Below, in pieces: positions 6,547 to 19,888 of a DNA stretch of 19,888 bases. Position numbers and translations under genes: made by a program. The notes under the pieces are model-generated. The model was given only the letters and a program-made list of their open reading frames with translations. It did not search any database and was not told the DNA's origin. The stretch is from Actinomycetota bacterium. Lineage in GTDB: Bacteria; Actinomycetota; Humimicrobiia; Humimicrobiales; Humimicrobiaceae. Location: the NCBI GenBank assembly GCA_023475715.1, contig JAMCVO010000344.1, positions 1-19,888 of the forward strand, read 5' to 3'. Within the stretch, counting starts at the first letter, position 1, and every line of letters starts with the position of its first letter.

Positions 6547-6572
6547 ATCTCTAACCTCTAAAACAAAGTTTA

Positions 6573-6581
6573 ATTATAACA
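6573..6581 (-). promoter_or_regulatory. Predicted extended -10 promoter of the PBP gene
   Basis: Read on the minus strand this is TGTTATAAT, a perfect TGnTATAAT extended -10 element. It sits 27 bases upstream of the PBP start and would give a leader of about 20 bases that contains the AGAGG ribosome-binding site (6555-6559). There is no clear -35, as is usual for extended -10 promoters. Confidence 0.5.
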
Positions 6582-6735
6582 CCTGCTGTTCATAAAGAAA
6601 GTTAAATTCAGTCAGGAACCCAGACAGTATAATAGACATATATATATCGGCTATGTTAATATTTATTGCAGATTTTTTATGATACTTGTGCTGTTATGTC
6701 AAATTTATTTTTTTATTTTTTAGAGGGTAATTAGT

Positions 6736-7968
6736 ATGGAAAAGGATTTAAGGAAACAAATCGACACAGCCTGCCAGGGTGCTGAAGATATTCTGATAAA
6801 AGAAGAACTTGAAGATATGCTGGCAAAATCCATCAGTGAAAATAAACCTCTTAAAGTCAAGCTGGGCCTTGACCCCACAGCACCTGATATACATCTTGGA
6901 CATACTGTGGTGTTAAATAAACTCAGGCAGTTCCAGGATATGGGACATAAAGCTATATTGATAATAGGCGATTATACAGCAAGGGTAGGGGATCCTTCGG
7001 GGAGATCCACACTGCGTCCCAAGCTTAATCCTGAAGTCATAGATAAAAATGCCAAAACCTATATGAAACAAGCATTCAAAATACTCGATGTGGAAAAAAC
7101 TGAAGTTGTTAAAAATTCAAAATGGTTAAAACCTTTAAAGCTTGAAGATATTTTAAATTTGACTTCAAGGTTTACCGTGGCAAGAATGCTTGAAAGAGAT
7201 GACTTCAAGAAACGCTTTCATAATAATATCTCAATTGCGATTATGGAATTTTTATATCCCATAATGCAGGCATATGATTCAGTAGCTATAAATGCTGATA
7301 TTGAACTTGGAGGAACAGATCAGCGGTTTAATTTATTGGTTGGAAGAGAGCTTCAGAAAGAATTTGGCCAGAGACCGCAGATTGCAATCACAATGCCTAT
7401 CCTGGCTGGAACCGACGGAGCAGAAAAAATGAGCAAGAGCCTTGGAAATTACATAGGTGTGACAGAGTCTCCTGATGAAATATTTGGTAAGGTTATGTCG
7501 ATTCCTGATTTTATAATAATTGATTATTACAGGCTTCTTACAAGAATAGGTAAGCCTGAAATTGATAAAATTGAAAAAAACATAAAAGAAAAAGGTGAAA
7601 ATCCTGTTATAGCAAAGAGAAATCTTGCAAAACTTATTGTTCAATATTTACATGACCGGCAAAAAGCAATAAACGCCGAGAAAAAATTTGACAGCATCTT
7701 TAAGGAGAAAAAAATACCTGATGAAGTTGAAAAATGTGTACCGAAGCAGGAAGATATTAAGGATGGAAAAATCCGGCTTGTAAATTTATTGGTAAGCAGC
7801 GGTCTTGCAGAGTCAAACAGCAAAGCCAGACAGCTTATCGTTCAGGGTGCAATAAAATTAGGTGATCTAAAAATAGAAGATCCAAATCTGGAACTGGAAT
7901 TAAAAGATATCTCGGGCAAAGTAATCCAAAAAGGCAAAAGATTTTTCAGGAAAATCATGTGTACATAA
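6736..7968 (+). CDS. tyrS: Tyrosyl-tRNA synthetase
   Basis: A 410-residue class I synthetase that charges tRNA-Tyr. The ATP-binding signature is HLGH at residues 53-56. GDYTARVGDPSGRS follows at about 78-91, the tyrosine-pocket segment ADIELGGTDQRFNLL at about 187-201, and KMSKS at 231-235. Residues about 345-405 form an S4 RNA-binding domain (RLVNLLVSSGLA ... QLIVQGAIKLG). HLGH together with KMSKS places it in the TyrZ-like subgroup rather than the E. coli TyrS subgroup. The start has AGAGGG eight bases upstream. A TATAAT lies at 6628-6633 without a good -35. No T-box leader is visible in the 189-base divergent gap. hypA follows 42 bases downstream. Confidence 0.97.
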   Translation: MEKDLRKQIDTACQGAEDILIKEELEDMLAKSISENKPLKVKLGLDPTAPDIHLGHTVVLNKLRQFQDMGHKAILIIGDYTARVGDPSGRSTLRPKLNPEVIDKNAKTYMKQAFKILDVEKTEVVKNSKWLKPLKLEDILNLTSRFTVARMLERDDFKKRFHNNISIAIMEFLYPIMQAYDSVAINADIELGGTDQRFNLLVGRELQKEFGQRPQIAITMPILAGTDGAEKMSKSLGNYIGVTESPDEIFGKVMSIPDFIIIDYYRLLTRIGKPEIDKIEKNIKEKGENPVIAKRNLAKLIVQYLHDRQKAINAEKKFDSIFKEKKIPDEVEKCVPKQEDIKDGKIRLVNLLVSSGLAESNSKARQLIVQGAIKLGDLKIEDPNLELELKDISGKVIQKGKRFFRKIMCT

Positions 7969-8010: not shown

Positions 8011-8367
8011 ATGCACGAATATTCAATTACAAGTTCAATAGTGGAGATACTTGATAAAGTCATAAAAGAAAAAAAACTAAAAAAAATAAAAAAAGTTAAT
8101 TTTGAATTAAGCCATATTGCAAGTATTGAACCGGAATCTATAAAATTTTATTTTGATTTTTTAACCGCAGAGAATCAAAGGCTAAAAGGTGCCATTCTTA
8201 AATTTAAAAAAAATAAATTAAAGCTTGCATGCAGCCAGTGCAGAAAGATATTTGAATCAAATGCTGAGCTTGATATTTCCGATGTTAAATGCCCAGCTTG
8301 CGGAAGTGAGAATGTGCAAATATGTCAAGAGGACGATATAAGAATTACCTCTGTTGAAACAGACTAA
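8011..8367 (+). CDS. hypA: Hydrogenase nickel-incorporation protein HypA
   Basis: A 118-residue nickel metallochaperone that delivers Ni to [NiFe]-hydrogenase maturation, and in some bacteria to urease, together with HypB. The invariant N-terminal MHE, whose H2 ligates nickel, is present. So is the zinc site made of two CxxC pairs, C74/C77 and C94/C97. Length is normal for the family. No hydrogenase or other hyp gene is in the window; its neighbour is tyrS, from which it may be co-transcribed. No clear Shine-Dalgarno sequence precedes the ATG, but the MHE start is diagnostic. Confidence 0.93.
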   Translation: MHEYSITSSIVEILDKVIKEKKLKKIKKVNFELSHIASIEPESIKFYFDFLTAENQRLKGAILKFKKNKLKLACSQCRKIFESNAELDISDVKCPACGSENVQICQEDDIRITSVETD

Positions 8368-8535: not shown

Positions 8536-8563
8536 TTGACAATAATTATAATTATAATATAAT
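8536..8563 (+). promoter_or_regulatory. Strong predicted promoter of the catabolic locus
   Basis: TTGACA (8536-8541) and TATAAT (8558-8563) are both perfect and separated by 16 bases. The spacer is a run of overlapping TATAATTA units. Transcription would begin near 8570, about 38 bases upstream of the DeoR-family gene, and could read through the co-directional genes to the window end. Confidence 0.7.
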
Positions 8564-8607
8564 AATATCAAAATTTATCAAATTATAGCAAATAATTTAT
8601 TAAAAAA

Positions 8608-9378
8608 ATGTTCCAAGAATCAAGAAAAGAAAAGATTGTTAATCTATTAAGTGAAGAAAAAGAGTTAAAAGTTAAAGAATTATGTAATTATTTTGGTATT
8701 TCTCTGGCTACCGCACATAGAGATTTAAATGAATTAAAAAGGGAAGGAAGAATAAAAAAAGTACATGGTGGAGTAATGCTAAACATAATAAAGAATGCAG
8801 AAGATGAAAATTTTATAAAACTTAACGAAAATATGGAATTAAAGGAGAAGATTGCAGTTGCAGCTTTAGAATATGTTGAAAATGGGGATTGTATTTTCTT
8901 AGCACCTTCTACTACATGTTATTACTTTGCAAAGCAACTTGCTGAATCTAATTTTAGAAATCTTATGATTATTACAAATTATCATTTAAATCTTGGGTTA
9001 TTTTTAAAAAATGAAAACATAAAGGTAGTTTCTACCGGAGGGTTACTGATAAAAGAATTCGGTTGTTTTGTTGGGCCAACTGCAATTACAACTATTAATG
9101 AGTTTAATGGTAATAAGTTTTTCTTTTCACCAAGAGCAATATCTATAGGTGGGGGGCTGAGTGATTATTACAATCTTGAAATATTTGATGTTGTAAAAGA
9201 AATGCATAAAAGATGTAAAGAACACATTTGCCTGGTTGATTCAAGTAAGTTTAATAAGACAGCCGAGGCCAGGATATTTCAAATATCAGAGATGGATAAA
9301 ATAATTACTGATAGCAAAGTGGATAGAGAAACAAGAGAAGAATTTGAGAAAATCAGTAAAAAATTAATAATTGCCTAA
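8608..9378 (+). CDS. DeoR/GlpR-family transcriptional regulator
   Basis: A 256-residue repressor of sugar catabolism. The N-terminal winged helix (residues about 5-57) shows the DeoR pattern: RKEKIVNLL, then a helix-turn-helix with GISLATAHRDLNEL, then KKVHGG. The C-terminal half is the DeoR sensor fold, with a phosphosugar-binding loop (APSTTCYYFAKQL), TNYHLNL, STGGLL and the closing LVDSSKFNK. Members respond to a phosphorylated intermediate of the pathway they control, which fits a locus containing an FGGY kinase. It is the first gene after the strong promoter, so autoregulation is likely. The ATG at 8608 lacks a Shine-Dalgarno sequence, but the domain begins almost at once. Confidence 0.92.
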   Translation: MFQESRKEKIVNLLSEEKELKVKELCNYFGISLATAHRDLNELKREGRIKKVHGGVMLNIIKNAEDENFIKLNENMELKEKIAVAALEYVENGDCIFLAPSTTCYYFAKQLAESNFRNLMIITNYHLNLGLFLKNENIKVVSTGGLLIKEFGCFVGPTAITTINEFNGNKFFFSPRAISIGGGLSDYYNLEIFDVVKEMHKRCKEHICLVDSSKFNKTAEARIFQISEMDKIITDSKVDRETREEFEKISKKLIIA

Positions 9379-9407
9379 GGTTTAAAGAATACCTAAGATT
9401 TAAAGAA
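9374..9407 (+). repeat. Short tandem direct repeat across the DeoR stop codon
   Basis: CCTAAGGTTTAAAGAA (9374-9389) and CCTAAGATTTAAAGAA (9392-9407) match at 15 of 16 bases, 18 bases apart. The first copy contains the TAA stop of the regulator. It looks like a small duplication; a regulatory role is not shown. Confidence 0.7.
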
Positions 9408-9422
9408 GATCAGGAGCTGTAT

Positions 9423-10859
9423 ATGAAATTATCTGAAGTTAAAGTCTTAAATGATGATGAAATAAAAAGAATAGATGAGGCTACCTTAGATATATTAAGC
9501 GAAGTCGGGGTAAAAATTGAAGATACCGATGTCCTGTCTATGCTTGAGGAAAAAGGATTGGAAATTAATTATGATACCCGTACTATAAAATTTAATCCCA
9601 CGGTTGTGAAAAAAGCGATAGAAGATACCCCGGAAGAATTTGAAGTATTTAGCAGAGACGGGTCATGCAGTTTTAAGCTTGGTGCTGGTAATGAGACCAG
9701 GACAGCATCCGGTTGTAATGGAATATTCAGCCTTGATCCTTATAAGAATGCCAGAAAACCCTCAACTAAAGAAGATGTAGGAATTTTTGCAAAATTATCA
9801 AACTATTTATCTGAAATAGATATGGTTTCACCACAAAGTATGCCTCAGGATGTACCGCCTAAATCTTCAATTTTACATGGAATAGATGCTGTTTTTAATA
9901 ATACTATAAAACCAATATTGTTTGCTCCCGAAAAAGATACCGAAGTGGAAGTCATAATAGAAATAATAAAAATTGTCCTTGATTACGATAATATAAACAT
10001 AAGACCTATAGGTATATGTGAGATATCTCCCTCAAGTCCGCTTTTCTGGACACCAGGAACAATAAAAGGATTTATTAAAATGGTAAAAGAGGGGTTTCCT
10101 TGCCTCATATTACCAGGTCCGCTGTCAGGTGCAACTGCGCCTTATTCAATTGCCGGAACCTTAATACAAAAGAATGCCGAGATTTTATCAGGAGTTGTAA
10201 TTGCACAATTATTTAATAAAGGAACACCTCTATTATATTGCAGCTCTGCAGGTCAAATTGAGATGAAATCAGGCGCCGCTCTGCTAAGTACTCCTGAGTG
10301 CTTTTTAATGGGGATAGCTTCTGCACAGATTGCACAATATTATAAAATACCTACTCATAATTGTACTCCTGTTTCTGATGCGCATATTTTAGATGAACAA
10401 CTGGGATTTGAGAATATGCTTTCATATATTAGCAGTTTTCAGTCTGGTATCAATCTTTTGGTTAATGCTGGAATGTTTTCTACCGGAGAAACGGTCTCTT
10501 TTTCACAACTCCTGATAGATAATGAAATTATTGGTATGGTAAGAAGATATATGAAAGGAATTGAAGTAAGTATTGAAAGCTTGGCTATGAATTCTATTAA
10601 AAAAATTAGATCAACGGGGAATTATATGCTTGATGAATTGAGCATCAAAAATTTAAGAAGTAGTGAATATTATAGTTCCGGTATTCTGAACAGAAAAAAA
10701 TATCAAAGGTGGTTTGAAGATGGAGCTAAAAATATTGGTGAAAATGCCACAAGAGAAGTTGAAAGAATATTAAAAGTGAGACAAGATGCCACACTCGAAG
10801 AAAATAAGAGAAAGAAAATAAAGAAAGTCATTGGTGATTATGAAAATAGATATAAGTGA
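9423..10859 (+). CDS. MttB-family (COG5598) corrinoid-type methyltransferase, non-pyrrolysine
   Basis: A 478-residue member of the trimethylamine methyltransferase family, full length. Recognisable blocks are the N-terminal IDEATLDILSEVGV (17-30), ASGCNGIFSLDP (95-106), SPSSPLFW (202-209), a glycine-rich LPGPLSGATAPYS segment (230-242) and CTPVSDAHILDEQLGFEN (314-331). The last lies where trimethylamine-specific MttB carries pyrrolysine; no in-frame TAG is present, so this is a non-Pyl homologue. Characterised non-Pyl members demethylate quaternary amines such as glycine betaine (MtgB), proline betaine or carnitine and pass the methyl group to a corrinoid protein. No corrinoid protein gene is in the window. 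AGGAG lies six bases upstream of the start. Its sugar-catabolic neighbours are unusual, so the substrate is unknown. Confidence 0.9.
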   Translation: MKLSEVKVLNDDEIKRIDEATLDILSEVGVKIEDTDVLSMLEEKGLEINYDTRTIKFNPTVVKKAIEDTPEEFEVFSRDGSCSFKLGAGNETRTASGCNGIFSLDPYKNARKPSTKEDVGIFAKLSNYLSEIDMVSPQSMPQDVPPKSSILHGIDAVFNNTIKPILFAPEKDTEVEVIIEIIKIVLDYDNINIRPIGICEISPSSPLFWTPGTIKGFIKMVKEGFPCLILPGPLSGATAPYSIAGTLIQKNAEILSGVVIAQLFNKGTPLLYCSSAGQIEMKSGAALLSTPECFLMGIASAQIAQYYKIPTHNCTPVSDAHILDEQLGFENMLSYISSFQSGINLLVNAGMFSTGETVSFSQLLIDNEIIGMVRRYMKGIEVSIESLAMNSIKKIRSTGNYMLDELSIKNLRSSEYYSSGILNRKKYQRWFEDGAKNIGENATREVERILKVRQDATLEENKRKKIKKVIGDYENRYK

Positions 10860-10976
10860 TATAAAGATTTTAACATAAGACCTTTGATATTATTAAAATT
10901 AAAAGCAATCAATGATAAGTATTATAAAAATTATCCATAATTATTCTGAAAAATCATTATAAAAGGAGTTATGTAA

Positions 10977-12017
10977 ATGGCAAAAGTTAAGATAGGTATA
11001 ATTGGCCTGGGGTGGATAGGTTCAATACATGGCAGAAATATATTAAATAATACAGATGCCAAATTAGCAGCTATTGCAGATACACGTGAAGAAAATGTTA
11101 AAAGATTTAAAAAGGAAACTGGTAAAGATCCAATATATTATAAGGACTATATAGATTTGTTAAAAAATAATGAAATAGAAGCAGTTGTCATTGCAACCCC
11201 AAATGACTCTCATAAAGAAATAACTATTGCTGCTGCAGAAGCCAATAAACATATAATGTGTGAAAAACCAATGGCAATTACTCTAGGTGATTGTAAAAAA
11301 ATAAGAGAAGCTGTCAATAAAGCAGGGGTAAAATATTTAATAGGGTACCATCTAAGATTTAATCCATTATATAAATATGTTAAAAATATCCTTGAACGTG
11401 GTGATATGGGGAAACAGATTTTTATTGAATCAGATTACATTCATTATGTACCACCTGATTGGGCAATCTGGGAATGGTTGGGAAAAGAAGATGTAGCTGG
11501 TTCGCTTTTCCATGCAGGTTGCGGTCATAATATAGATCTCATGAGATTTTTATGTGGAGATATCAAGGAGGTTTCAAGTTTCAAAGGCATATTTATTCCC
11601 AGAAAAATACAGGTAGAAACAGAAGATACGGCACTGGCCATGTTAAGATTTAAAAATGGGACTATTGGTAAGAGTGTATTTATACTTGGAGCGATTGCAC
11701 CTTTTACCCTTAGTTTCAGTCTTTATTGCACCAAGGCAACTGTCAGGAACAATAAAATATGGTTAGACAGTATACCCAATTTTTATGAGATAGGCTATGA
11801 AAAGGATTATATTGAATTACCGGCTTCCTGGATTCCAAATAATAAAGAGGGTGATATTTCCGAACCTTGGGATAAATCGATAAATCATTTTATTGATGCT
11901 ATTAAAAATAATAAACCTACCATCAATGATGTTGAAGATGCTTACAAGACCAGCGAGGTATGCTTTGCCGTAGTAAAATCTGCTAATGAGAAAAAATCAG
12001 TAGAATTACCACTTTGA
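10977..12017 (+). CDS. Gfo/Idh/MocA-family NAD(P)-dependent oxidoreductase
   Basis: A 346-residue dehydrogenase. The Rossmann nucleotide-binding loop is GIIGLGWIGSIHG (7-19). The family's catalytic-lysine motif is CEKPMAIT (95-102, EKP at 96-98). The C-terminal substrate-domain segment is AGCGHNIDLMRFL (180-192), with H184 and D187 in the usual catalytic positions. Such enzymes oxidise or reduce sugars and cyclitols at a single hydroxyl, for example inositol 2-dehydrogenases. AGGAG lies upstream of the ATG. Sitting next to a DegT-type aminotransferase, it could produce the keto group that a transaminase uses, or act on the keto product of one. The substrate cannot be read from the sequence. 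Confidence 0.92.
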   Translation: MAKVKIGIIGLGWIGSIHGRNILNNTDAKLAAIADTREENVKRFKKETGKDPIYYKDYIDLLKNNEIEAVVIATPNDSHKEITIAAAEANKHIMCEKPMAITLGDCKKIREAVNKAGVKYLIGYHLRFNPLYKYVKNILERGDMGKQIFIESDYIHYVPPDWAIWEWLGKEDVAGSLFHAGCGHNIDLMRFLCGDIKEVSSFKGIFIPRKIQVETEDTALAMLRFKNGTIGKSVFILGAIAPFTLSFSLYCTKATVRNNKIWLDSIPNFYEIGYEKDYIELPASWIPNNKEGDISEPWDKSINHFIDAIKNNKPTINDVEDAYKTSEVCFAVVKSANEKKSVELPL

Positions 12018-12085
12018 GAAAAATAAGAAATATATCATTGTCAAACTAAAAAAATTTGTATTATTAGGATTATGAGGAGGAAAAA

Positions 12086-13276
12086 ATGGGTGAAATGGTT
12101 CCCGGAAGAGCAAAAGAAATAAGAAAATTCGATGAAAAAGAATTAAATTATCTAAAGGAAGTTCTGGCAAGTGGTCTTCTAAGCTCTCTGGATGGAGAAA
12201 TGGTAAAACGTTTTGAAAAAGCTTTTGCAAAATTTACTGGAGCAAAATTTGCATTGGCCAGATCTAATGCCATGCTTGCGTTAGCCGAAGCAGTAAGTGT
12301 TAGTGGCGCTGCTACTGCAACCGAAGTAATATGCGATCCCATAGTTCACTTTGGAGCTGTGGCCGCTACTTATTTTAATGCAGTCCCAAGATTCGCGGAT
12401 GTTAATTATGACACCTATAATATGGACCCTGAATCTTTGGAAGCAAATATAACCAATAGGACTAAAGCAGTTATTGTGACGCATATGTGGGGCCTCAGTG
12501 CAGAAATTGATAAAATTAGTGAAATATGCAAAAAACATAACATTTTTCTTATCGAGGATTGTGCAATTGCATTAAAATCTTATTGGAAGGGCAAACATGT
12601 AGGAACTTTTGGGGATATTGGGTGCTTCAGCTTTCAGGAATATAAGCAACTCTCAACAGGAGATGGTGCTATGAGTGTGACTAATAATCCTGACCTGATA
12701 AACAATATGGAAAATGTATGGGCATTCAGTGGAGAATCTCCTCATTTTATGACTTTGAATTTCAGAATGACTGAAGCTACAGCAGCTATTGGCTTAGCTC
12801 AGTTAGATAAGGTTAGCGAAAGAATAAAAAATCTTTATGATGCGACACTTAAGATATTTAATGATTCCATAAAGGACTGCCAGTGGTTAAAAAATCGTTT
12901 GGTACCCAAAGAAGCGATACAATCGGGTATCTGGTTTAGCTGCACATGGGAAGGAGATAAATATGGTCTGGACTATGATAAGTTTCAAAAACTAAGTGAG
13001 GAAATGGGGATAGGTCTTAGATTTGGTTTTAATCATGTTGCCGCATACGAATTTGATGTGTTTAAGAAACCTGCATTATATAAAAATCCATATTGTCCCA
13101 CTCTTTGTCCATTATATATCAAGGTTAGTGATTACAGATATAAAAAAGGACTATGCCCGGTTGCCGAAGATATAATGCCTCGTCTTATAACGGTAAATTT
13201 GATTTTTATGACTATAGAAGAGGCAAAGAGAAAAGCTGAGATGCTGCACCATCATATTTGGTTAATGAAAAAATAG
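12086..13276 (+). CDS. DegT/DnrJ/EryC1/StrS-family PLP-dependent aminotransferase
   Basis: A 396-residue enzyme of the sugar/cyclitol aminotransferase family. Residues about 55-66 (KFALARSNAMLA) form the PLP phosphate-binding turn. IEDCA (156-160) supplies the aspartate that contacts the PLP ring nitrogen. FSFQEYKQLSTGDGAM (181-196) contains the Schiff-base lysine K187. All catalytic parts are present, so it should be active; the family also includes dehydratases, but these have histidine in place of that lysine. Members act on keto-sugars or inososes, and the reverse direction could deaminate an amino sugar in a catabolic locus. GAGGAGG lies just upstream of the start. Next to the Gfo/Idh enzyme it forms a likely oxidation/transamination pair. 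Confidence 0.9.
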   Translation: MGEMVPGRAKEIRKFDEKELNYLKEVLASGLLSSLDGEMVKRFEKAFAKFTGAKFALARSNAMLALAEAVSVSGAATATEVICDPIVHFGAVAATYFNAVPRFADVNYDTYNMDPESLEANITNRTKAVIVTHMWGLSAEIDKISEICKKHNIFLIEDCAIALKSYWKGKHVGTFGDIGCFSFQEYKQLSTGDGAMSVTNNPDLINNMENVWAFSGESPHFMTLNFRMTEATAAIGLAQLDKVSERIKNLYDATLKIFNDSIKDCQWLKNRLVPKEAIQSGIWFSCTWEGDKYGLDYDKFQKLSEEMGIGLRFGFNHVAAYEFDVFKKPALYKNPYCPTLCPLYIKVSDYRYKKGLCPVAEDIMPRLITVNLIFMTIEEAKRKAEMLHHHIWLMKK

Positions 13277-13327
13277 ATTAGCGGAATAAAATTTGATGTA
13301 TTCACTTTAAATAATGATAGCGAAATA

Positions 13328-13349
13328 TTCAACAATCAATATTGTTGAA
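13328..13349. promoter_or_regulatory. Perfect 9-bp inverted repeat, candidate operator
   Basis: TTCAACAAT (13328-13336) and ATTGTTGAA (13341-13349) are exact reverse complements around CAAT. No T-run follows, so it is a poor terminator. The half-site TTCAACAA also occurs at 8470-8477, upstream of the locus promoter, which makes a regulator-binding site plausible. Confidence 0.45.
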
Positions 13350-13388
13350 ATATAGGAAATCTAAGCTGGTTTATTTAAAAAATGTTTT

Positions 13389-13402
13389 AAAGGGAGGTGA
13401 TA
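13389..13402 (+). promoter_or_regulatory. Shine-Dalgarno-like sequence without a start codon (first)
   Basis: AAAGGGAGGTGATA contains GGAGGTGA (13393-13400), near-perfectly complementary to the 16S 3' end. The only GTG overlaps the motif and the next ATG is at 13416, too far for normal initiation. It may serve as a ribosome-binding mRNA stabiliser (STAB-SD type) in the leader of the binding-protein gene. Confidence 0.5.
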
Positions 13403-13411
13403 AATATTTAA

Positions 13412-13446
13412 CTTTATGCTTACGATTGTTTTTCGTAAGCATAAAG
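13412..13446 (+). other. 13-bp perfect hairpin in the binding-protein leader
   Basis: CTTTATGCTTACG (13412-13424) pairs perfectly with CGTAAGCATAAAG (13434-13446) across a nine-base loop. It is followed by CAAGAGCGC, not a T-run, so it is not a classic terminator. It lies between the two start-less Shine-Dalgarno sequences. Confidence 0.75.
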
Positions 13447-13453
13447 CAAGAGC

Positions 13454-13470
13454 GCTTAACTAAGTTAAGC
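13454..13470 (+). other. Second leader hairpin, 7-bp stem
   Basis: GCTTAAC (13454-13460) and GTTAAGC (13464-13470) pair around TAA. It sits seven bases after the larger hairpin and 16 bases before the second start-less Shine-Dalgarno sequence. Confidence 0.6.
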
Positions 13471-13486
13471 AAATAAAGAATATCAT

Positions 13487-13500
13487 AAAAAGGAGGTGAT
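13487..13500 (+). promoter_or_regulatory. Shine-Dalgarno-like sequence without a start codon (second)
   Basis: AAAAAGGAGGTGAT gives an uninterrupted match to the anti-Shine-Dalgarno region (AAGGAGGTGAT). No ATG, GTG or TTG lies at usable distance; the next ATG (13525) is about 24 bases away and its frame ends after five codons. The true ribosome-binding site of the binding-protein gene is a separate GGAGG at 13564-13568. Confidence 0.55.
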
Positions 13501-13573
13501 TCAAATAAGATATCTTAATAAATGATACCGAAGAATTAGGTACTTAAGTTCAATTAAAAAATTGGAGGATTTA

Positions 13574-15025
13574 ATGAAAAAAAGTAAATTATTAAGGTTG
13601 CTTGTTTTTTTCATAGTGATAATTATTGCAGTGTCCTTTAACTTGTCTGGTTGTAAAAAGACAACAACTACAGAGACAGCAGCAGGTGAAACTTCAGCGG
13701 CAGAGACAACATCAGTAGAAACAACGGCTATTACTACAGCGAAACTGGATGAATTTGGCCAGCCAATTCTGCCGGAACCCGAAAAAGCAGTTACTCTTGA
13801 TATGTGGATGCAAGATTGGACTGCAGGGTTAGAAATTGTTGGTGATATTGCAGCTCTTATTAAAGAAAGACATCCTAATATCAATATTAATATTATTCCT
13901 CAACCCTACGAAACCCTTAATCAGAAATTTATTCCTGCGGTTATGGCGGGAACAGAACCAGATATAATGTTTGGATATTACGGATGGATGACCTCAGTTG
14001 ATGTTTCAGAATTATTTTTAAAGTTATCTCCGGAGGTTATAAATAAAGAAGATGTGAATAAATATGTTGATTCTATTGCTTATTTAGGTGTTATTGGAAG
14101 AAGTGACGGAGAGCTTTATGGAGTAGGCTGGGGTGATGCAGGTGAAGCCTGGGGTATTCTTGTAAATTCTGATTTAGTAAAAGAAGCAAATATAAATATT
14201 AATGAGATAAAAACCTGGGATGCACTTCTTACGGCAGCAAAGAAATTAACCAAATATGATGGTGCAGGAAATGTTACAAGGAGCGGTTTGGGCCTCACTT
14301 ATAGCGGCAGTAGTGCAGAAATATGGTATGATTCCATTTTGCAAATAGGCGGTAAACCATTTAATACAGATACCGGAAAATGGGATTTTAACACACCTGA
14401 AGCAAAAACAGTTACCCAGTTCTGGGCAGGCATGGTTTTAAAAGATAAAATTGATGATCCAAAGATAGGTTTGGCTTATGACAACTTCCCCAAGGGTCTT
14501 TGTGCAATGTTCATGGTTGGTCCCTGGGCGGTAGGTGCTATGAACGTTGACTATCCTGAATTGAATGTCGATTATATTTTACCTCCGCCAGTCTTTCCAG
14601 GGGGGCAACCTTTATATGATGTACCCTCTAACGCAGGATGGGTTTTTTCAACGAAACTTGAAGATGATAAATTAAAAGCTGCGCATATAATAGCTCGTGA
14701 ATTAATGCTGAATCCAAAAGTAGATTCAATTAAACTGGAAAAATGGGCAGGTGCTATACAGAATAAAAAATTAATTGAAATGCTGAAATCAGGTGAAGTC
14801 GTCATTGAAGGAAAAAATGTCGATCTTGCCAAAATTATTGATGAGTTTGTTACTCCATTTACTAAAAGTATGACTTTAGGTTCTAAAGTTGACAGAGATT
14901 ACATAACTAATTCTGTTTATTATCCGGAGATTGAGAAAATCTGGGGAGGAACCCAAAGTGTGGACGAAGCTTTGATGAATATAACCAATGCGGCAAATGA
15001 AACAGAAAGTGGAGTAGCGGAATAG
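13574..15025 (+). CDS. ABC transporter substrate-binding lipoprotein (family 1, sugar type)
   Basis: A 483-residue secreted lipoprotein that captures a carbohydrate-like ligand for the adjacent permeases. The signal peptide (about 1-26) ends in lipobox LSGC with lipidated C27. A low-complexity Thr/Glu/Ala linker follows (about 29-55), then a family 1 solute-binding fold: a first strand with TLDMWMQDW, IPAVMAGTEPDIMFG, LYGVGWGDAGEAWGILVNSDL, and a hinge-region FMVGPWAVG. The start is placed at ATG 13574, five bases after GGAGG. A TTG at 13562 is in frame, but it immediately precedes and overlaps that ribosome-binding site, so it is not a credible start. Hairpins lie on both sides of the gene, which may favour its high expression over the permeases. 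Confidence 0.93.
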   Translation: MKKSKLLRLLVFFIVIIIAVSFNLSGCKKTTTTETAAGETSAAETTSVETTAITTAKLDEFGQPILPEPEKAVTLDMWMQDWTAGLEIVGDIAALIKERHPNININIIPQPYETLNQKFIPAVMAGTEPDIMFGYYGWMTSVDVSELFLKLSPEVINKEDVNKYVDSIAYLGVIGRSDGELYGVGWGDAGEAWGILVNSDLVKEANININEIKTWDALLTAAKKLTKYDGAGNVTRSGLGLTYSGSSAEIWYDSILQIGGKPFNTDTGKWDFNTPEAKTVTQFWAGMVLKDKIDDPKIGLAYDNFPKGLCAMFMVGPWAVGAMNVDYPELNVDYILPPPVFPGGQPLYDVPSNAGWVFSTKLEDDKLKAAHIIARELMLNPKVDSIKLEKWAGAIQNKKLIEMLKSGEVVIEGKNVDLAKIIDEFVTPFTKSMTLGSKVDRDYITNSVYYPEIEKIWGGTQSVDEALMNITNAANETESGVAE

Positions 15026-15045
15026 AAAATAAATGGTTTTAAGGG

Positions 15046-15081
15046 CGTATATCTTACCGGATTTCCCCGGTAAGATATACG
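15046..15081 (+). other. 15-bp perfect intercistronic hairpin
   Basis: CGTATATCTTACCGG (15046-15060) pairs with CCGGTAAGATATACG (15067-15081) across a six-base loop. It begins 20 bases after the binding-protein stop and ends 19 bases before the first permease. There is no T-run. Position and strength resemble the stabilising hairpins found between binding-protein and permease genes such as malE-malF. Confidence 0.75.
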
Positions 15082-15100
15082 ATAACTAAAAAGGGAAAAT

Positions 15101-15988
15101 ATGATTAAAAAGGGAAGAGTTAAAATTAATAGATTTATTTTAGCAGTATTTATCCCGGTAATGGGTTTTTTTACTATCTTTGGTTTCTGGCCCATTATAT
15201 ATAATTTTTATTTAACCTTTATAAGGACCAAAATAGTAACTAAAGGCAATTTTGCTGGTTTCAATAATTATATTGAAGTATTTAGCAATCCGGTTTTTAG
15301 AATCAGTATAAGAAATACCATATTATATTGTATAGGACTGGTAGTAATAGGTATTGTCACTTCTTTAATTATAGCAGTGTCTATTTCTAAAACTAAAGGT
15401 TTATTAAAAAAAATATTTATCGCCTGTTATTTTGCTCCTGTGGTGACTTCGCTTGTGGCTACCAGTATTATATGGAAGATACTCTATTATCCTAATTCAG
15501 GTGTTATAAATGTTATTCTAAATTTCTTGCACTTACCGATGCAAAGTTTTTTATTTGACTACCGGATTGCTCTTATATCAATACTTATTATGGATATCTG
15601 GAAAGACACCGGACTTAGAACCATGATACTTCTCGCTGCCATAGAAGAGATCCCTGATACTGTATATGAAGCTTCGTTGATTGACGGAGCAAATCCTCTG
15701 CAGCAGTTTTTCAAAATAACTGTACCTCTGCTTAAACCTCAACTTTTATTTCTGGCAGTGATTTATACTATTAACGGAGTTCAGACATTTACCCAGGTTT
15801 ATATAATGACTTCACCACATGCCGGTGGACCAGGGAACTCAACTATGGTTTTAGCTCTAGACATGTATAAGAAAGCTTTTGGAAACTTGAGATTTGGGTA
15901 TGGTGCAGTGGTTTCAGTAGTTATGTTATTGCTTTTAATTGGTTTTACCATTACACAGGTAAAATCCAGAACTGAATGGGAATGGTAA
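15101..15988 (+). CDS. ABC sugar transporter permease, MalF/UgpA type
   Basis: A 295-residue inner-membrane protein with about six hydrophobic segments (the first at roughly 11-40). The cytoplasmic EAA loop, which docks the ATPase, is at 190-213: EASLIDGANPLQQFF followed by KITVPLLKP. This carbohydrate uptake (CUT1) permease is the first half of a heterodimeric channel with the next gene. An AAGGGA ribosome-binding site precedes the ATG and lies just past the intercistronic hairpin. The next gene starts 41 bases downstream. The ligand is not deducible. Confidence 0.94.
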   Translation: MIKKGRVKINRFILAVFIPVMGFFTIFGFWPIIYNFYLTFIRTKIVTKGNFAGFNNYIEVFSNPVFRISIRNTILYCIGLVVIGIVTSLIIAVSISKTKGLLKKIFIACYFAPVVTSLVATSIIWKILYYPNSGVINVILNFLHLPMQSFLFDYRIALISILIMDIWKDTGLRTMILLAAIEEIPDTVYEASLIDGANPLQQFFKITVPLLKPQLLFLAVIYTINGVQTFTQVYIMTSPHAGGPGNSTMVLALDMYKKAFGNLRFGYGAVVSVVMLLLLIGFTITQVKSRTEWEW

Positions 15989-16029
15989 TTTTAATTTAAA
16001 CATTTGTTTTTAAAAAAAAGGGATAAGAT

Positions 16030-16866
16030 ATGGATAGTCTTAGAATTAAAAGAATTGCTATTAAAGCGACTTTGTATGTCTTATTGAGCATAGGTGCCTT
16101 ATTTATGATTTTTCCATTTATCTGGATGATTTTATCTTCCTTTAAAACTTCCTTTGAAATGATGCAGATACCCCTTACTTTTTTTCCCAAAGTATGGACT
16201 TTAGAAAATTACAAGCTGGTATTTGAAAAGCTGCCAGTCTTCAGGGCATTTTTTAACAGTTTAATAGTATCTTCAAGTATTACTTTTTTGGTTCTTTTTA
16301 CCTCTTCTATCACTGGTTTTATATTTGCCAAGATGAGATTTAAAGGAAAAGAGTTATTTTTTTATTATATTCTTCTTAGCTTGATGGTACCAATTCATTT
16401 GATTATAATCCCTTTATATATGGTTATAACCAAATTTGGAATAGTAGATACATATATGGGATTAATTCTGCCTTTTGCTATTAGCGGATTTGGAATATAT
16501 TTGCTCAGGTCCTTTATTAAAGGAATTCCCTCAGAATTGATTGAAGCTGCCAAGATTGATGGAGCTTCCGATATCAGAATTTATCTTAATATTATATTAC
16601 CTTTGGTTAAGCCCATATTGTCTGTTTTAGCAATTTTGATATTTCTATGGAGTTGGGATGAATTCTTATGGCCCTTAGTAGTGGTATCCAGCAATGAGCT
16701 AAAAACTGTACCTTTGGTACTTGCCTCATTTACCATGGCAGAGGCATCTTACCCTGCTCCCTCAATGGCAGCGGCTTCAATTGTTATTATTCCGGTATTA
16801 ATTGTATACGCCTTCTTTCAGAGAAATTTTGTAAAGGGAATTTCACTCACTGGTATAAAAGGTTAA
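16030..16866 (+). CDS. ABC sugar transporter permease, MalG/UgpE type
   Basis: A 278-residue inner-membrane protein with about six membrane segments. A MalG-type N-terminus (MIFPFIWMILSSFKT, 26-40) is followed by the EAA loop at 172-195 (EAAKIDGASDIRIYLN then IILPLVKP). It forms the second half of the channel with the preceding permease. AAGGGATA lies upstream of the start. No ATPase gene (MalK/MsmK/UgpC type) follows; an amidohydrolase begins 24 bases later. The transporter presumably uses a shared ATPase encoded elsewhere. Confidence 0.94.
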   Translation: MDSLRIKRIAIKATLYVLLSIGALFMIFPFIWMILSSFKTSFEMMQIPLTFFPKVWTLENYKLVFEKLPVFRAFFNSLIVSSSITFLVLFTSSITGFIFAKMRFKGKELFFYYILLSLMVPIHLIIIPLYMVITKFGIVDTYMGLILPFAISGFGIYLLRSFIKGIPSELIEAAKIDGASDIRIYLNIILPLVKPILSVLAILIFLWSWDEFLWPLVVVSSNELKTVPLVLASFTMAEASYPAPSMAAASIVIIPVLIVYAFFQRNFVKGISLTGIKG

Positions 16867-16890
16867 AATTATTTTTCAGGAATCATTCTT

Positions 16891-17934
16891 ATGATAAAAG
16901 ATTTCAAATATTATAATAACGATAAAAGAATTTTTAATGAGGAAATAAAAGATAACATTCCGTCAAAAATATTGGACTTTCATGTTCATCTTTTTAAGAA
17001 AGAACATATTATCAAGGAAGTATCACAGTCTAAAAAAGAAAAAGATCCCTTTTTTAATTTTGAAGTGATAGATGAATTTACTATTGATAATTTTATTTTT
17101 ACTGCTGAAATTATATTTCCAGGAATTGAATATGAAGGATTATTTTTTGGTGCACCTTTTAGAGAAATGGATCTCAATTCCATGAATACAATGGTTGCAG
17201 AGGAAATCATAAAAACCGGAAAATACGGATTATTTATTCCAAAACCTGAGGACGATATTAAGAATATTGAAAAAAACATAATAGAGAAAGGTTTTTTAGG
17301 CCTTAAACCATATCCCGAGCTTGCAATTGGAAAAGAATATCGGGAGGATTTAGATAGTGTATCAATTTTGGATTTTCTAACTGTGGATCATCTTGAATTG
17401 GCTAACAGATATAATTTATTAATAATTCTGCATATACCTAAATCTAAAAGATTAATCGATGACAAGAATATCGAAGATATCACATATATTTCAAAAACAT
17501 TTCCTGACATAAAATTAATACTTGCACATGCCGGCAGGTTATACTGTGAACATAATATTGTGGAAACTATTAAAAAAATATGTTTACTTAAAAATGTTTA
17601 TGTAGATACTGCAATGATTAATAACTGGGAAGTTTTTGAGATATTATTAGAATATTTTGGAAGCGAAAGAATAATCTTCGGGACAGATTTACCAATTGCT
17701 ATACTTAGAGGTAAAAATATATGCATAAATAACAATCATTATTTTTTTACTTCTGTTCCTTATCTCTGGAGTATTTCCAATAAGAACTTAAAAGAAGAAA
17801 ATATTACATTTTTTCTCTATGAGGAAATAAAGGGGATATTAAAGGCGGTTAACAGAAAAAAATTAGATAAACAGGTTATTAATAATATTTTTTATAATAA
17901 TGCTTATAATTTAATAAGTTCTGTAAAAATTTAA
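16891..17934 (+). CDS. Amidohydrolase-2-type metal-dependent hydrolase
   Basis: A 347-residue TIM-barrel hydrolase. The metal-binding HxH on the first strand is at H31/H33 (DFHVHL). GLKPYPE follows at about 137-143. H181 (ILHIPK) and H213 (ILAHAGR) supply the next ligands, and D266 (IIFGTDLPIA) the final catalytic aspartate, so the active site looks complete. The family hydrolyses or decarboxylates small ring compounds and lactones; in sugar loci members act on lactones, which would suit the product of a Gfo/Idh dehydrogenase. That assignment is inference. The AGGAA ribosome-binding site is modest. Confidence 0.85.
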   Translation: MIKDFKYYNNDKRIFNEEIKDNIPSKILDFHVHLFKKEHIIKEVSQSKKEKDPFFNFEVIDEFTIDNFIFTAEIIFPGIEYEGLFFGAPFREMDLNSMNTMVAEEIIKTGKYGLFIPKPEDDIKNIEKNIIEKGFLGLKPYPELAIGKEYREDLDSVSILDFLTVDHLELANRYNLLIILHIPKSKRLIDDKNIEDITYISKTFPDIKLILAHAGRLYCEHNIVETIKKICLLKNVYVDTAMINNWEVFEILLEYFGSERIIFGTDLPIAILRGKNICINNNHYFFTSVPYLWSISNKNLKEENITFFLYEEIKGILKAVNRKKLDKQVINNIFYNNAYNLISSVKI

Positions 17935-17946
17935 GGAGGCTAAAAT

Positions 17947-18879
17947 ATGAATACGTTTAAATTCAGTCCATCCAGGTGGGTACCTTTTGAAGACCAAACT
18001 GTGTGTGAAAAAATTAGAAAGATAAAAAAAGAGGAAATTACAAAACATCCTAATCCAGACTTAAAAATAAGAATTATTAAAGATGAGGACATGGCTTTTA
18101 TGAGAATCTGGGACATTTTCTCGAGAATGAAGCAGGCTTATGAAGAAGACAGAAGATTGGTAATGATACTCCCACAACCTCATCCACAATATAAGAAAGT
18201 AGCATATTTAATCAATAAGTACAGAATAGATTGTAAACAACTTTATACTTTTAATATGGATGAGTGGGCAGATCAAGATGGAAATATTGCTCCTGAAACA
18301 TATCCTAAAGGATTTTTATATGCCATGATGCACAATTTCTACTATAATATTGATGAGGATTTAAGACCACCTAAAAATCAAATAATTGGCCCTACAAATA
18401 AAAATATTAAAGATTATGGCAAGATGATTGAAGATTTGGGTGGAGCTGATTTATGTGATGGCGGTATTGGTTGGAGTGGTCATTTAGCCTTTATTGACCC
18501 AGGTGCAAAAGAATTTGAAGGCAGTTTTGAAGAATGGAAGCAAATGGGTCCCAGAATTGTTACTTTGAACCTGTTTACAATTGCACAAAGTTGCCTCGAA
18601 CCTGATTTTGGAATGAGCGGGGATTGGTCTGCTGTTCCTCCAAGAGCTGCTACGATAGGACCAGCACAAATACTGAGAGCCAAACATTATTGCAGCTGGA
18701 ATGACTTTACTATTGGCGGTACACCAGTATCGTGGCAAAGGTTTGTTGTAAGATTTGCGCTTCATGGACCGATAACCCAAAAATTGACCGCAACCTTACT
18801 TCAATTAAGAAAAACAGATGTATATATTTCGGAGACAATTGCAGAGAATATAGTTGAGGAGGGAGATAATTTAATATAA
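17947..18879 (+). CDS. Divergent glucosamine-6-phosphate deaminase/isomerase (NagB)-like protein
   Basis: A 310-residue protein, longer than typical NagB (about 240-270). It keeps the NagB framework: TFNMDEW at 101-107 (D105 aligns with the catalytic D72 of E. coli NagB), GGIGWSGHLAFIDPG at 172-186, TIAQ at 211-214, and a late LQL segment. Two features differ. The position of catalytic D141 is serine (S177), though H179 is kept and D184 replaces E148. The phosphate-binding GLPTGGTP loop is replaced by ILPQPHPQ (74-81). It may therefore isomerise or deaminate a different, perhaps non-phosphorylated, sugar. AAGGAGG precedes the start and overlaps the previous stop. Its own stop overlaps the ATG of the aldolase by one base. 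Confidence 0.8.
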   Translation: MNTFKFSPSRWVPFEDQTVCEKIRKIKKEEITKHPNPDLKIRIIKDEDMAFMRIWDIFSRMKQAYEEDRRLVMILPQPHPQYKKVAYLINKYRIDCKQLYTFNMDEWADQDGNIAPETYPKGFLYAMMHNFYYNIDEDLRPPKNQIIGPTNKNIKDYGKMIEDLGGADLCDGGIGWSGHLAFIDPGAKEFEGSFEEWKQMGPRIVTLNLFTIAQSCLEPDFGMSGDWSAVPPRAATIGPAQILRAKHYCSWNDFTIGGTPVSWQRFVVRFALHGPITQKLTATLLQLRKTDVYISETIAENIVEEGDNLI

Positions 18880-19694
18880 TGTCAGGAATTGAGCTGAGAA
18901 TCAAAAAATTATTTAACGGCAAAAAGAATCTGGTGATATCTGCCCTGGATCATGTAATGGAATATGGAGACCAGCCAGGTTTACAAGATGCAAAAAAAGC
19001 TATAAAAAATGTTTAAACAACTGACGGACTTATTCTTCCAAGATTTATGTTAAAACGTCACTGGGAACTTCTTGCATCAAGAGCTTTTCCCATACCTATT
19101 GTAAGAATTAATTGGTCTTCTTCATTTTATTATCCGCTCGACTACAGGGAGGGTAATACCACTATAGCTGCTACAGTAGAAGAAGCAGCGCAGGCCGGTG
19201 CCGAAGCAGTAATATGTTCTCTATTTTTAGAAGAAGATAATGCGCAAGTTAGGGAAAAAGATAATGTTACAATATTTTCTGAAGTAGTAAGACAGAAAGA
19301 AAAATTAGGGGTTCCTCTAATTGGTGAGTGTTATATTGTTGAACATATGGATAAATCAATTGAGCAGATACATGCCAAGGTAAAAAGGGTATCACGAATC
19401 ATGGCTGAACTGGGTGCAGATTTGGTTAAGACATTTTTTACCGGGAACATGTTTCATGAAGTAGTGGAAAATACTCCAGTTCCGGTTTTCACAATTGGAG
19501 CTGAAAAACTGAATACAGATCTCGATGTGTTAAAAAAAGCATTCAATAGTGTAAAGCAGGGAGCAAGTGGGATAATATTTGGTAGAAACATATTTATGGC
19601 TGAAAATCCTGTTCCAATATCAAAGGCGCTGAATGATGTCATGAACAATAATATTGAACCTGAAGATGCATTAAGGAAATATTATGAAAAATGA
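18879..19694 (+). pseudogene. Class I aldolase (DeoC/LacD/FbaB-like) interrupted by an in-frame TAA
   Basis: From ATG 18879 one frame of 272 codons encodes a class I aldolase of the LsrF/FbaB type, but codon 46 is TAA (19014-19016). The first part (MSGIELRIKKLFNG, then LVISALDHV) supplies the first barrel strand with its conserved D-H. After the stop the same frame continues TTDGLILPRFMLKRHW and runs to TGA at 19694. The Schiff-base lysine is K184, in GADLVKTFF, and the phosphate-end strand is SGIIFGRNIFM. Frame is kept on both sides, so one base substitution (for example CAA to TAA) explains it. Initiation at ATG 19047 would give 215 residues lacking the first strand. It may be a true nonsense mutation, a sequence error or readthrough. 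It overlaps the NagB-like stop and the kinase start. Confidence 0.8.
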
Positions 19695-19888
19695 TTATAT
19701 TTGCGGGATTGATATTGGAACAACTAATATAAAAGGTTCTGTTTATACGTTAAAAGGCAAACTCATTTCCAGTAATAGCATTGCTTATAAAAGTTACTCT
19801 CCTGAAGAGAATTATTATGAACAAAAACCTGATGATTGGGTTTGTGGCTTAATTGATGTTCTTAAGAAATTGCTGATAAATGATGAAG
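19684..19888 (+). CDS. FGGY-family carbohydrate kinase, N-terminal part
   Basis: The first 68 codons of a gene that runs off the window. CGIDIGTTNIKGSVY (about residues 7-21) is the ATP phosphate-binding motif of FGGY kinases such as xylulokinase and LsrK, and QKPDDWV (about 51-57) matches the typical 'Q-x-P-x-x-W' that follows. The start at 19684 overlaps the aldolase end by 11 bases and has AAGGA seven bases upstream; the ATG at 19691 is in another frame. It would phosphorylate the pathway sugar before aldol cleavage and could generate the effector of the DeoR-type regulator. Sugar specificity lies in the missing part. Confidence 0.88.
   Translation, partial: MKNDYICGIDIGTTNIKGSVYTLKGKLISSNSIAYKSYSPEENYYEQKPDDWVCGLIDVLKKLLINDE

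Follow-up and report, generated by a model that had tools for sequence, protein, structure and literature searches.

A pyrrolysine codon is missing from most genes of the MttB superfamily, and what these genes do is still debated (PMC8604678). The question is raised again by the 19,888-nucleotide stretch analysed here and called the window (contig JAMCVO010000344.1, assembly GCA_023475715.1, an Actinomycetota bacterium of the Humimicrobiaceae), in which a non-pyrrolysine MttB homologue is encoded among genes of sugar catabolism: what would such a protein do in a sugar operon? Our results placed it in a distinct branch of the superfamily with strong support, and showed that this branch occurs in several unrelated bacteria and that the window locus is no local oddity. 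Sugar enzymes were encoded within 7 kb of MttB in 22 of 28 branch loci and in none of 64 other MttB loci. From the sequence comparisons, we consider it on balance probable that the operon imports and degrades a methylated sugar or sugar-like compound, with the MttB homologue as the corrinoid-dependent demethylase that opens the catabolism.

Gene organization of the window locus

The gene run extended from 8536 to the window end and contained the following features.

8536-8563, + strand: sigma-70 type promoter match (TTGACA-16-TATAAT), 12/12 consensus positions
8608-9378, + strand: DeoR-family regulator (HTH_DeoR 4.8e-15, DeoRC 1.5e-36)
9423-10859, + strand: non-pyrrolysine MttB-superfamily protein of 478 amino acids, member of the sugar-linked branch (PF06253, E 3.8e-84)
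10977-12017, + strand: Gfo/Idh/MocA dehydrogenase (closest curated model inositol 2-dehydrogenase, below its cut-off)
12086-13276, + strand: DegT/DnrJ/EryC1/StrS aminotransferase (Pfam; motif lysine present in the alignment)
13562-15025, + strand: extracellular solute-binding protein (SBP), CUT1-type (SBP_bac_1 2.8e-26)
15101-15988, + strand: permease, GlcT/UgpA-like (Pfam/NCBIfam)
16030-16866, + strand: permease, UgpE/GlcU-like (Pfam/NCBIfam)
16891-17934, + strand: Amidohydro_2 metal-dependent hydrolase (1.5e-15)
17947-18879, + strand: divergent NagB-like protein (TIGR00502 1.3e-15, below cut-off)
18879-19694, + strand: DeoC/LacD (DhnA-type) class I aldolase frame, interrupted by an in-frame TAA at 19014-19016
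19684-19888, + strand: N-terminus of an FGGY carbohydrate kinase, cut by the window end (8.5e-10)

All 11 genes were located on the + strand downstream of one promoter match, and every member of the co-directional set named in the original prediction was recovered by Pfam and NCBIfam. The intergenic gaps were, in order, 44, 117, 68, 285, 75, 41, 24, 12, -1 and -11 bases, a spacing that fits one operon. The promoter site, a consensus match only, was the best of 59 promoter-like sites, a number similar to that in shuffled sequences (56.0, sd 6.4).

For the NagB-like protein, the TIGR00502 score of 57.5 bits lay below the NagB equivalog cut-off of 236.9 and a Pfam match at 0.01 was not found, so it was labelled NagB-like only. 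No substrate was named by the PDB matches of the window enzymes. The nearest solved relatives of the DegT protein were perosamine synthetase and, slightly lower, 2-deoxy-scyllo-inosose aminotransferase; the SBP had weak matches, including an arabino-oligosaccharide-binding protein. Neither a corrinoid protein nor RamA was found among the window open reading frames (ORFs) of at least 100 amino acids, as had been remarked earlier, and no URO-D protein was encoded in the window. No Rfam family exceeded its gathering score, and no tRNA was found by the tRNA search.

A separate branch of the MttB superfamily

The window MttB matched PF06253 with 282.9 bits against a cut-off of 25, and its TIGR02369 score was 387.4 bits, below the trimethylamine equivalog cut-off of 525. 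Its frame was open and free of in-frame TAG, with V317 at the position of Pyl334, in agreement with its first description as a non-pyrrolysine homologue. A trimethylamine methyltransferase, or pyrrolysine read-through, was ruled out by the sub-cut-off score, the missing TAG and the Val at the Pyl position.

In the IQ-TREE quick tree, a split with support 100 set 84 members apart from 70 other MttB proteins (4 of them paralogues from branch loci), MtgB (9yce) and the pyrrolysine MttB (7xcl). FastTree gave a branch of 86 with the same support, and none of 76 ordinary rows fell inside. Rows with stops were left out of the trees, some control loci holding MttB pieces split at in-frame stops, and lengths were limited to 400-560 residues for FastTree and 440-560 for IQ-TREE and the residue alignment. 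MtpB, MtcB, MtyB and MthB were not among the rows.

The relatives of the window MttB recovered by the protein search ranged from 67% down to about 33% identity. A genome scan with the window MttB as single query found no relative, whereas profile and alignment searches did. A profile search at E 1e-140, in which scoring was confined to the 7997 candidates with the most shared words, gave 58 proteins; those with names came from metagenome-assembled genomes (MAGs) of Armatimonadota, Actinobacteria, Spirochaetaceae and Pirellulaceae. An alignment search with one genome per species gave the best 80 of 532 relatives, the first 10 of which belonged to the branch. Ten titled carriers were MAGs of Actinobacteria, Candidatus Aerophobetes, Actinomycetota, Sedimentisphaerales, Treponema, Spirochaetota, Bacteroidales, Victivallaceae, Victivallales and Clostridiaceae, which we count as seven major groups after placing the orders in phyla. 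By profile search, carriers numbered 6 of 387 genomes in the phylum of G009 (a Victivallales MAG), 2 of 314 in that of G004, 2 of 17 in that of G002, 4 of 315 in that of G006, and 5 of 35 in the order of G001 (an Actinobacteria MAG). These counts include the centre genomes and were made at E 1e-140, except in the phylum of G009, where at least 589 bits were required (next match 413.5); in the phyla of G009, G004 and G006, scoring was limited to the top 4 or 5 candidates per genome, and carriers may be missed.

Published MttB structures place Pyl334, Gly110, Met249 and Tyr364 in the active site (PMC9842639), and the branch profile had its best PDB matches in 7xcm and 7xcl. Family scaffold residues were retained in the branch, including D143, K163, D324, Q326, E330 and G350, together with a branch-specific set consisting of F122, Q142, S202, W209, L230, H312, N348, M351, F352 and Q362. 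Position 317, equivalent to Pyl334, was Asp in 45 and Asn in 26 of the 84 rows, and position 232, equivalent to Met249, was Glu in 27, Gln in 24 and Gly in 21. An acid stood at 232 or 317 in 68 rows; the 16 others all belonged to the sub-branch of the window, whose own copy carries Gly232 and Val317 and is without the acid. The apparent covariation of E232/N317 against Q232/D317 (Fisher p 1.7e-10) was not used as independent evidence, because the E/N rows form one tree branch and the switch is one event.

Sugar genes around the branch MttB

The neighbourhoods within 7 kb were compared by seed search (threshold 1e-10) between the 28 branch loci, window included, and the 64 other MttB loci. The seeds came mostly from the window and L001-L010, with two from L111 and L112 and a corrinoid profile, and those loci match themselves. 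L173 on the branch side and 6 of 70 control loci were dropped, their MttB having been lost by the ORF caller, as were 4 of 142 neighbour ORFs. The 28 loci are not 28 independent cases, since L177 and L178 cover overlapping parts of one contig and several other loci come from a common genome.

The branch loci without any sugar enzyme in range were L005, L010, L172, L175, L176 and L183. DegT was present in 12/28 branch loci, Gfo/Idh in 7/28 and an isomerase similar to AraA, FucI or SftI in 14/28, and each of these was absent from all 64 controls; CUT1-type permeases were detected in 11/28 and 4/64 respectively. A Pfam scan free of seed bias, covering 138 neighbour ORFs per side and 24 of the 50 eligible control loci, gave 11 DegT, 9 URO-D, 6 AP_endonuc_2 and 4 FGGY members on the branch side. 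None of these four was among the 25 commonest of 123 control families (each therefore with at most 3 members), which included B12-binding, Pterin_bind, GCV_T and FTCD_C; the branch list likewise held the 25 commonest of 95. By the seed counts against other MttB loci and this independent scan, a chance neighbourhood was rejected, and the co-occurrence with DegT and sugar genes for which a check had been proposed was borne out.

Across the 28 fetched loci (L173 in, window out), the recurrent partners were DegT, Gfo/Idh, isomerases, xylose-isomerase-like barrels, FGGY kinases, class II aldolases, CUT1-type transporters and URO-D proteins. Some loci, including L003 and the loci L186-L188 of the class of G001, resemble pathways built on an isomerase, a kinase and an aldolase.

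Four isomerases were also compared with NCBIfam (L009:12506-13816, L179:1697-3136, L187:2847-4181 and 5860-7365). The sulfoquinovose isomerase SftI was the nearest model each time, with 28 to 140 bits against a cut-off of 700, a possible hint of 6-substituted hexoses. For one isomerase of a relative, the PDB search gave no match.

Proposed pathway and nature of the methyl group

In the proposed pathway, the operon would import the methylated compound, and the MttB homologue would transfer the methyl group of this compound to the Co(I) of a corrinoid protein. The gene for that protein would lie at another place in the genome, and a RACo-type activase would maintain its activity. From the corrinoid, the methyl group would pass to tetrahydrofolate or another acceptor. 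The demethylated sugar would be oxidised or transaminated by Gfo/Idh and DegT, deaminated or isomerised by the NagB-like protein, phosphorylated by the FGGY kinase and finally split by aldol cleavage. MthK modifies phosphocholine before the MttB-type enzyme acts (PMC12155760), and with this precedent a kinase-first order is possible in the sugar-linked operon too.

The methyl group might be carried by nitrogen or by oxygen. In the nitrogen case, which we hold possible but doubtful, MttB would demethylate an N-methylated amino sugar or aminocyclitol, DegT and Gfo/Idh, together with the NagB-like protein, would remove the nitrogen, and the skeleton would go to the kinase and aldolase. Consistent with this, the motif lysine, which we take to be the residue carrying pyridoxal phosphate in the DegT family, was present in 13/13 aligned DegT copies. 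Besides the 12 loci with DegT in range, L001 has one 7.4 kb away, L176 has a class III aminotransferase, and a weak relative of the NagB-like protein of the window was found in L008 (6e-21). In the literature consulted, characterised MttB relatives also act on methylated nitrogen (PMC8604678, PMC12155760). On the other side, genes that handle nitrogen (for DegT, a NagB-like protein or a class III aminotransferase) were detected in 14/28 loci and not in the other 14, with Pfam covering part of the ORFs and some contigs short; among those without were L186, L187 and L188, of which 15.0, 11.2 and 12.6 kb were covered and L186 starts 1.1 kb upstream of MttB. The window DegT was 24-31% identical to the other 12 copies and thus not a tight orthologous partner. 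The original prediction had proposed breakdown of an N-methylated amino sugar or aminocyclitol; its sugar context recurred among relatives, the N-methyl part did not prove general, and for the window operon such a substrate is possible.

The oxygen case, to which we also give a minority chance, supposes that the branch demethylates O-methyl sugars, that is aliphatic methyl ethers. MttB, perhaps with URO-D proteins, would bring the ether methyl to the corrinoid, and an acidic residue would aid the leaving of the alkoxide. It fits with the FucI/AraA/SftI-like isomerases, class II aldolases and FGGY kinases of the loci in which no nitrogen step was seen, with the URO-D members among the neighbour ORFs, with the acid at 232 or 317 in most rows, and with the aryl O-demethylases MtvB, OdmB and VdmB of the UroD superfamily (PMC13222342). 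Nevertheless, no corrinoid enzyme cleaving alkyl methyl ethers of sugars was found in the literature searched, among the matches listed. The URO-D neighbours in L188 and L179 were closest to MtaA/CmuA, below cut-off, and matched methylcobalamin:coenzyme M methyltransferase in the PDB, not the O-demethylases. The residue switch counts as one tree event, the window has neither the acid nor a URO-D protein, and DegT would be left without an obvious role.

The DegT loci and the window fit the nitrogen version, and the loci with isomerase, kinase and aldolase in which no nitrogen step was seen fit the oxygen version; each may hold in sub-branches of its own. The sugar-cluster context suggests that the branch strips methyl groups from methylated sugars without oxygen. 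Whether it is as a whole an anaerobic, corrinoid-dependent sugar demethylase family, acting on O-methyl and in some lineages N-methyl sugars, is put forward tentatively, with a chance short of even.

Corrinoid link and state of the window copy

Corrinoid machinery was encoded in the genomes of the relatives. TIGR02370 matches were detected in 9 of the first 10 host genomes, and RACo in 21/22 host genomes (9/10 first and 12/12 further) compared with 1/14 controls. In the phylum of G009, RACo was present in 6/6 branch carriers against 139/387 genomes overall (p 0.002), and G009 itself held a single MttB match, the branch copy, with one corrinoid match and one RACo. Two branch loci had the corrinoid gene alongside. 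On the 3.53-Mb contig of G727, L178 showed the order isomerase, DegT, Gfo/Idh, branch MttB, corrinoid protein, second MttB and ABC transporter, and in L181 a corrinoid protein, a kinase and a transporter were located near the branch MttB.

The approximately 25 kb of L177/L178 (G727:C1) contained 3 branch MttB, 2 DegT, several URO-D, further MttB paralogues and 1 corrinoid protein. Another transporter-linked cluster, identified by seed similarity, was L201 (G001:C154, 2-10571), with an MttB outside the branch hits of the order of G001. Its run comprised a URO-D-like protein, an SBP, two permeases, two URO-D-like proteins, a corrinoid protein, MttB and a ROK protein, which suggests that sugar-linked corrinoid systems extend beyond this branch.

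A number of observations weigh against the demethylase reading. A corrinoid protein was encoded within 7 kb in just those 2/28 branch loci compared with 17/64 other MttB loci, and URO-D by seed search in 3/28 compared with 1/64 (p 0.08). The TIGR02370 search was also positive in 9/14 control genomes, and the RACo match in G717 was a 66-residue fragment. In the class of G001, the apparent class of the window, RACo was present in 39/40 genomes and therefore discriminates nothing there. Further MttB matches that could account for the corrinoid proteins and RACo were held by 8 of the first 10 host genomes. The branch copy was the sole MttB match in G007 and G009 only, and in G007 the genome search did not find RACo; two of its corrinoid proteins had pterin-binding methyltransferases as neighbours, and one of these two was also next to MTHFR and FTHFS. 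At E 1e-140, no branch MttB was found in G1058, the genome closest by TyrS; TyrS sits there at a contig end, which prevents a comparison of the place. In the window itself, the TAA breaks the aldolase frame, V317 departs from the Asp or Asn of 71/84 rows and C98 from the His of 67/84, and S361, R396 and S407 replace residues that are conserved in 92, 94 and 99% of the 84 rows, respectively, and in all six nearest relatives (P0002-P0007). The missing local corrinoid gene is no objection, since in E. limosum the gene for MtqC lies away from those of the quaternary-amine methyltransferases it serves (PMC8604678).

The small number of local corrinoid genes and the distinct set of branch-specific residues would fit a homologue recruited to a non-methyl role, such as another TIM-barrel reaction on a sugar, with the genomic corrinoid genes unrelated. 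We judge this unlikely in view of the retained family scaffold, the two loci with a corrinoid protein nearby and the RACo of nearly all host genomes.

The broken aldolase and the three unusual residues bear on the state of the window copy. This may be a decaying or recently altered locus, the pathway being real in relatives and no longer working here, an explanation that we regard as rather improbable. All other frames were open except the kinase cut by the window end, and the operon-like spacing and the perfect promoter match were kept. The class I aldolase reported earlier was indeed present as a DeoC/LacD frame, but its interruption had been missed; the TAA may be a mutation or an assembly error, and one contig does not tell which. 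The window MttB is an atypical member, and inferences based on the branch therefore transfer to it with caution.

TyrS, also encoded upstream of the cluster, was 93% identical to that of G1058, a genome from the class of G001 in which RACo was present. P0128, a TyrS equally 93% identical to that of the window, is labelled as from a Nitrososphaeraceae archaeon, against actinobacterial labels on the other named relatives (mostly 'Actinobacteria bacterium', Candidatus Hydromicrobium and a Candidatus Humimicrobiaceae bacterium), and probably comes from a mis-binned MAG contig. Further upstream features were a U32-family protein (293-2671, +), a class A penicillin-binding protein with PASTA domains (3697-6546, -) and, directly before the DeoR regulator, a HypA-like nickel metallochaperone (8011-8367); no hydrogenase was found among the scanned window ORFs.

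Comparison with known systems

Methylated sugars are common constituents of polymers from plants, algae and bacteria. A distinct MttB branch that accompanies sugar-catabolic genes in several phyla suggests a substrate class so far unrecognised, and the branch offers a concrete gene set for testing, one with the corrinoid protein alongside. Among the matches listed from the open-access literature searched, we found no description of a sugar-linked MttB branch, of corrinoid demethylation of sugars, including N-methyl amino sugars, or of oxygen-free demethylation of methylated sugars, which is no proof of absence. The MttB family is known; the branch and its sugar context appear to be new relative to that literature.

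The quaternary-amine methyltransferases MtgB, MtpB, MtcB, MtyB and MthB belong to the same superfamily and, like the branch, use no pyrrolysine. In E. limosum the partner MtqC is encoded elsewhere (PMC8604678), as is proposed for the partner in the window system. These enzymes differ in their substrates, which are betaines, carnitine, butyrobetaine and phosphocholine; none was found in a sugar operon in the literature consulted, and MtgB falls outside the branch of 84. The pyrrolysine MttB shares the scaffold residues and differs at the Pyl334 position, which is mostly D or N in the branch and V in the TAG-free window copy.

The pairing of a DegT aminotransferase with a Gfo/Idh dehydrogenase is known from the amino-sugar enzymes NtdA/NtdC, a biosynthetic system with no methyltransferase, and NtdA was a weak PDB match of the window DegT (1.6e-15). 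Corrinoid methyl transfer is also carried out by UroD-superfamily methyltransferases (MtvB, OdmB, VdmB, MtaA, MtbA and CdmB), and URO-D proteins recur beside the branch; they are nevertheless a different family from MttB, and the two local ones resembled MtaA/CmuA only below cut-off.

A parallel is offered by the aerobic P450 acting on 6-O-methyl-D-galactose, by which the sugar is demethylated before ordinary sugar catabolism, as proposed here (PMC10033563). That route is oxidative, gives formaldehyde and relies on a monooxygenase instead of a corrinoid system. If the proposal holds, both the sugar and its methyl group would enter central metabolism, and the branch would provide an oxygen-free counterpart of the P450 route.

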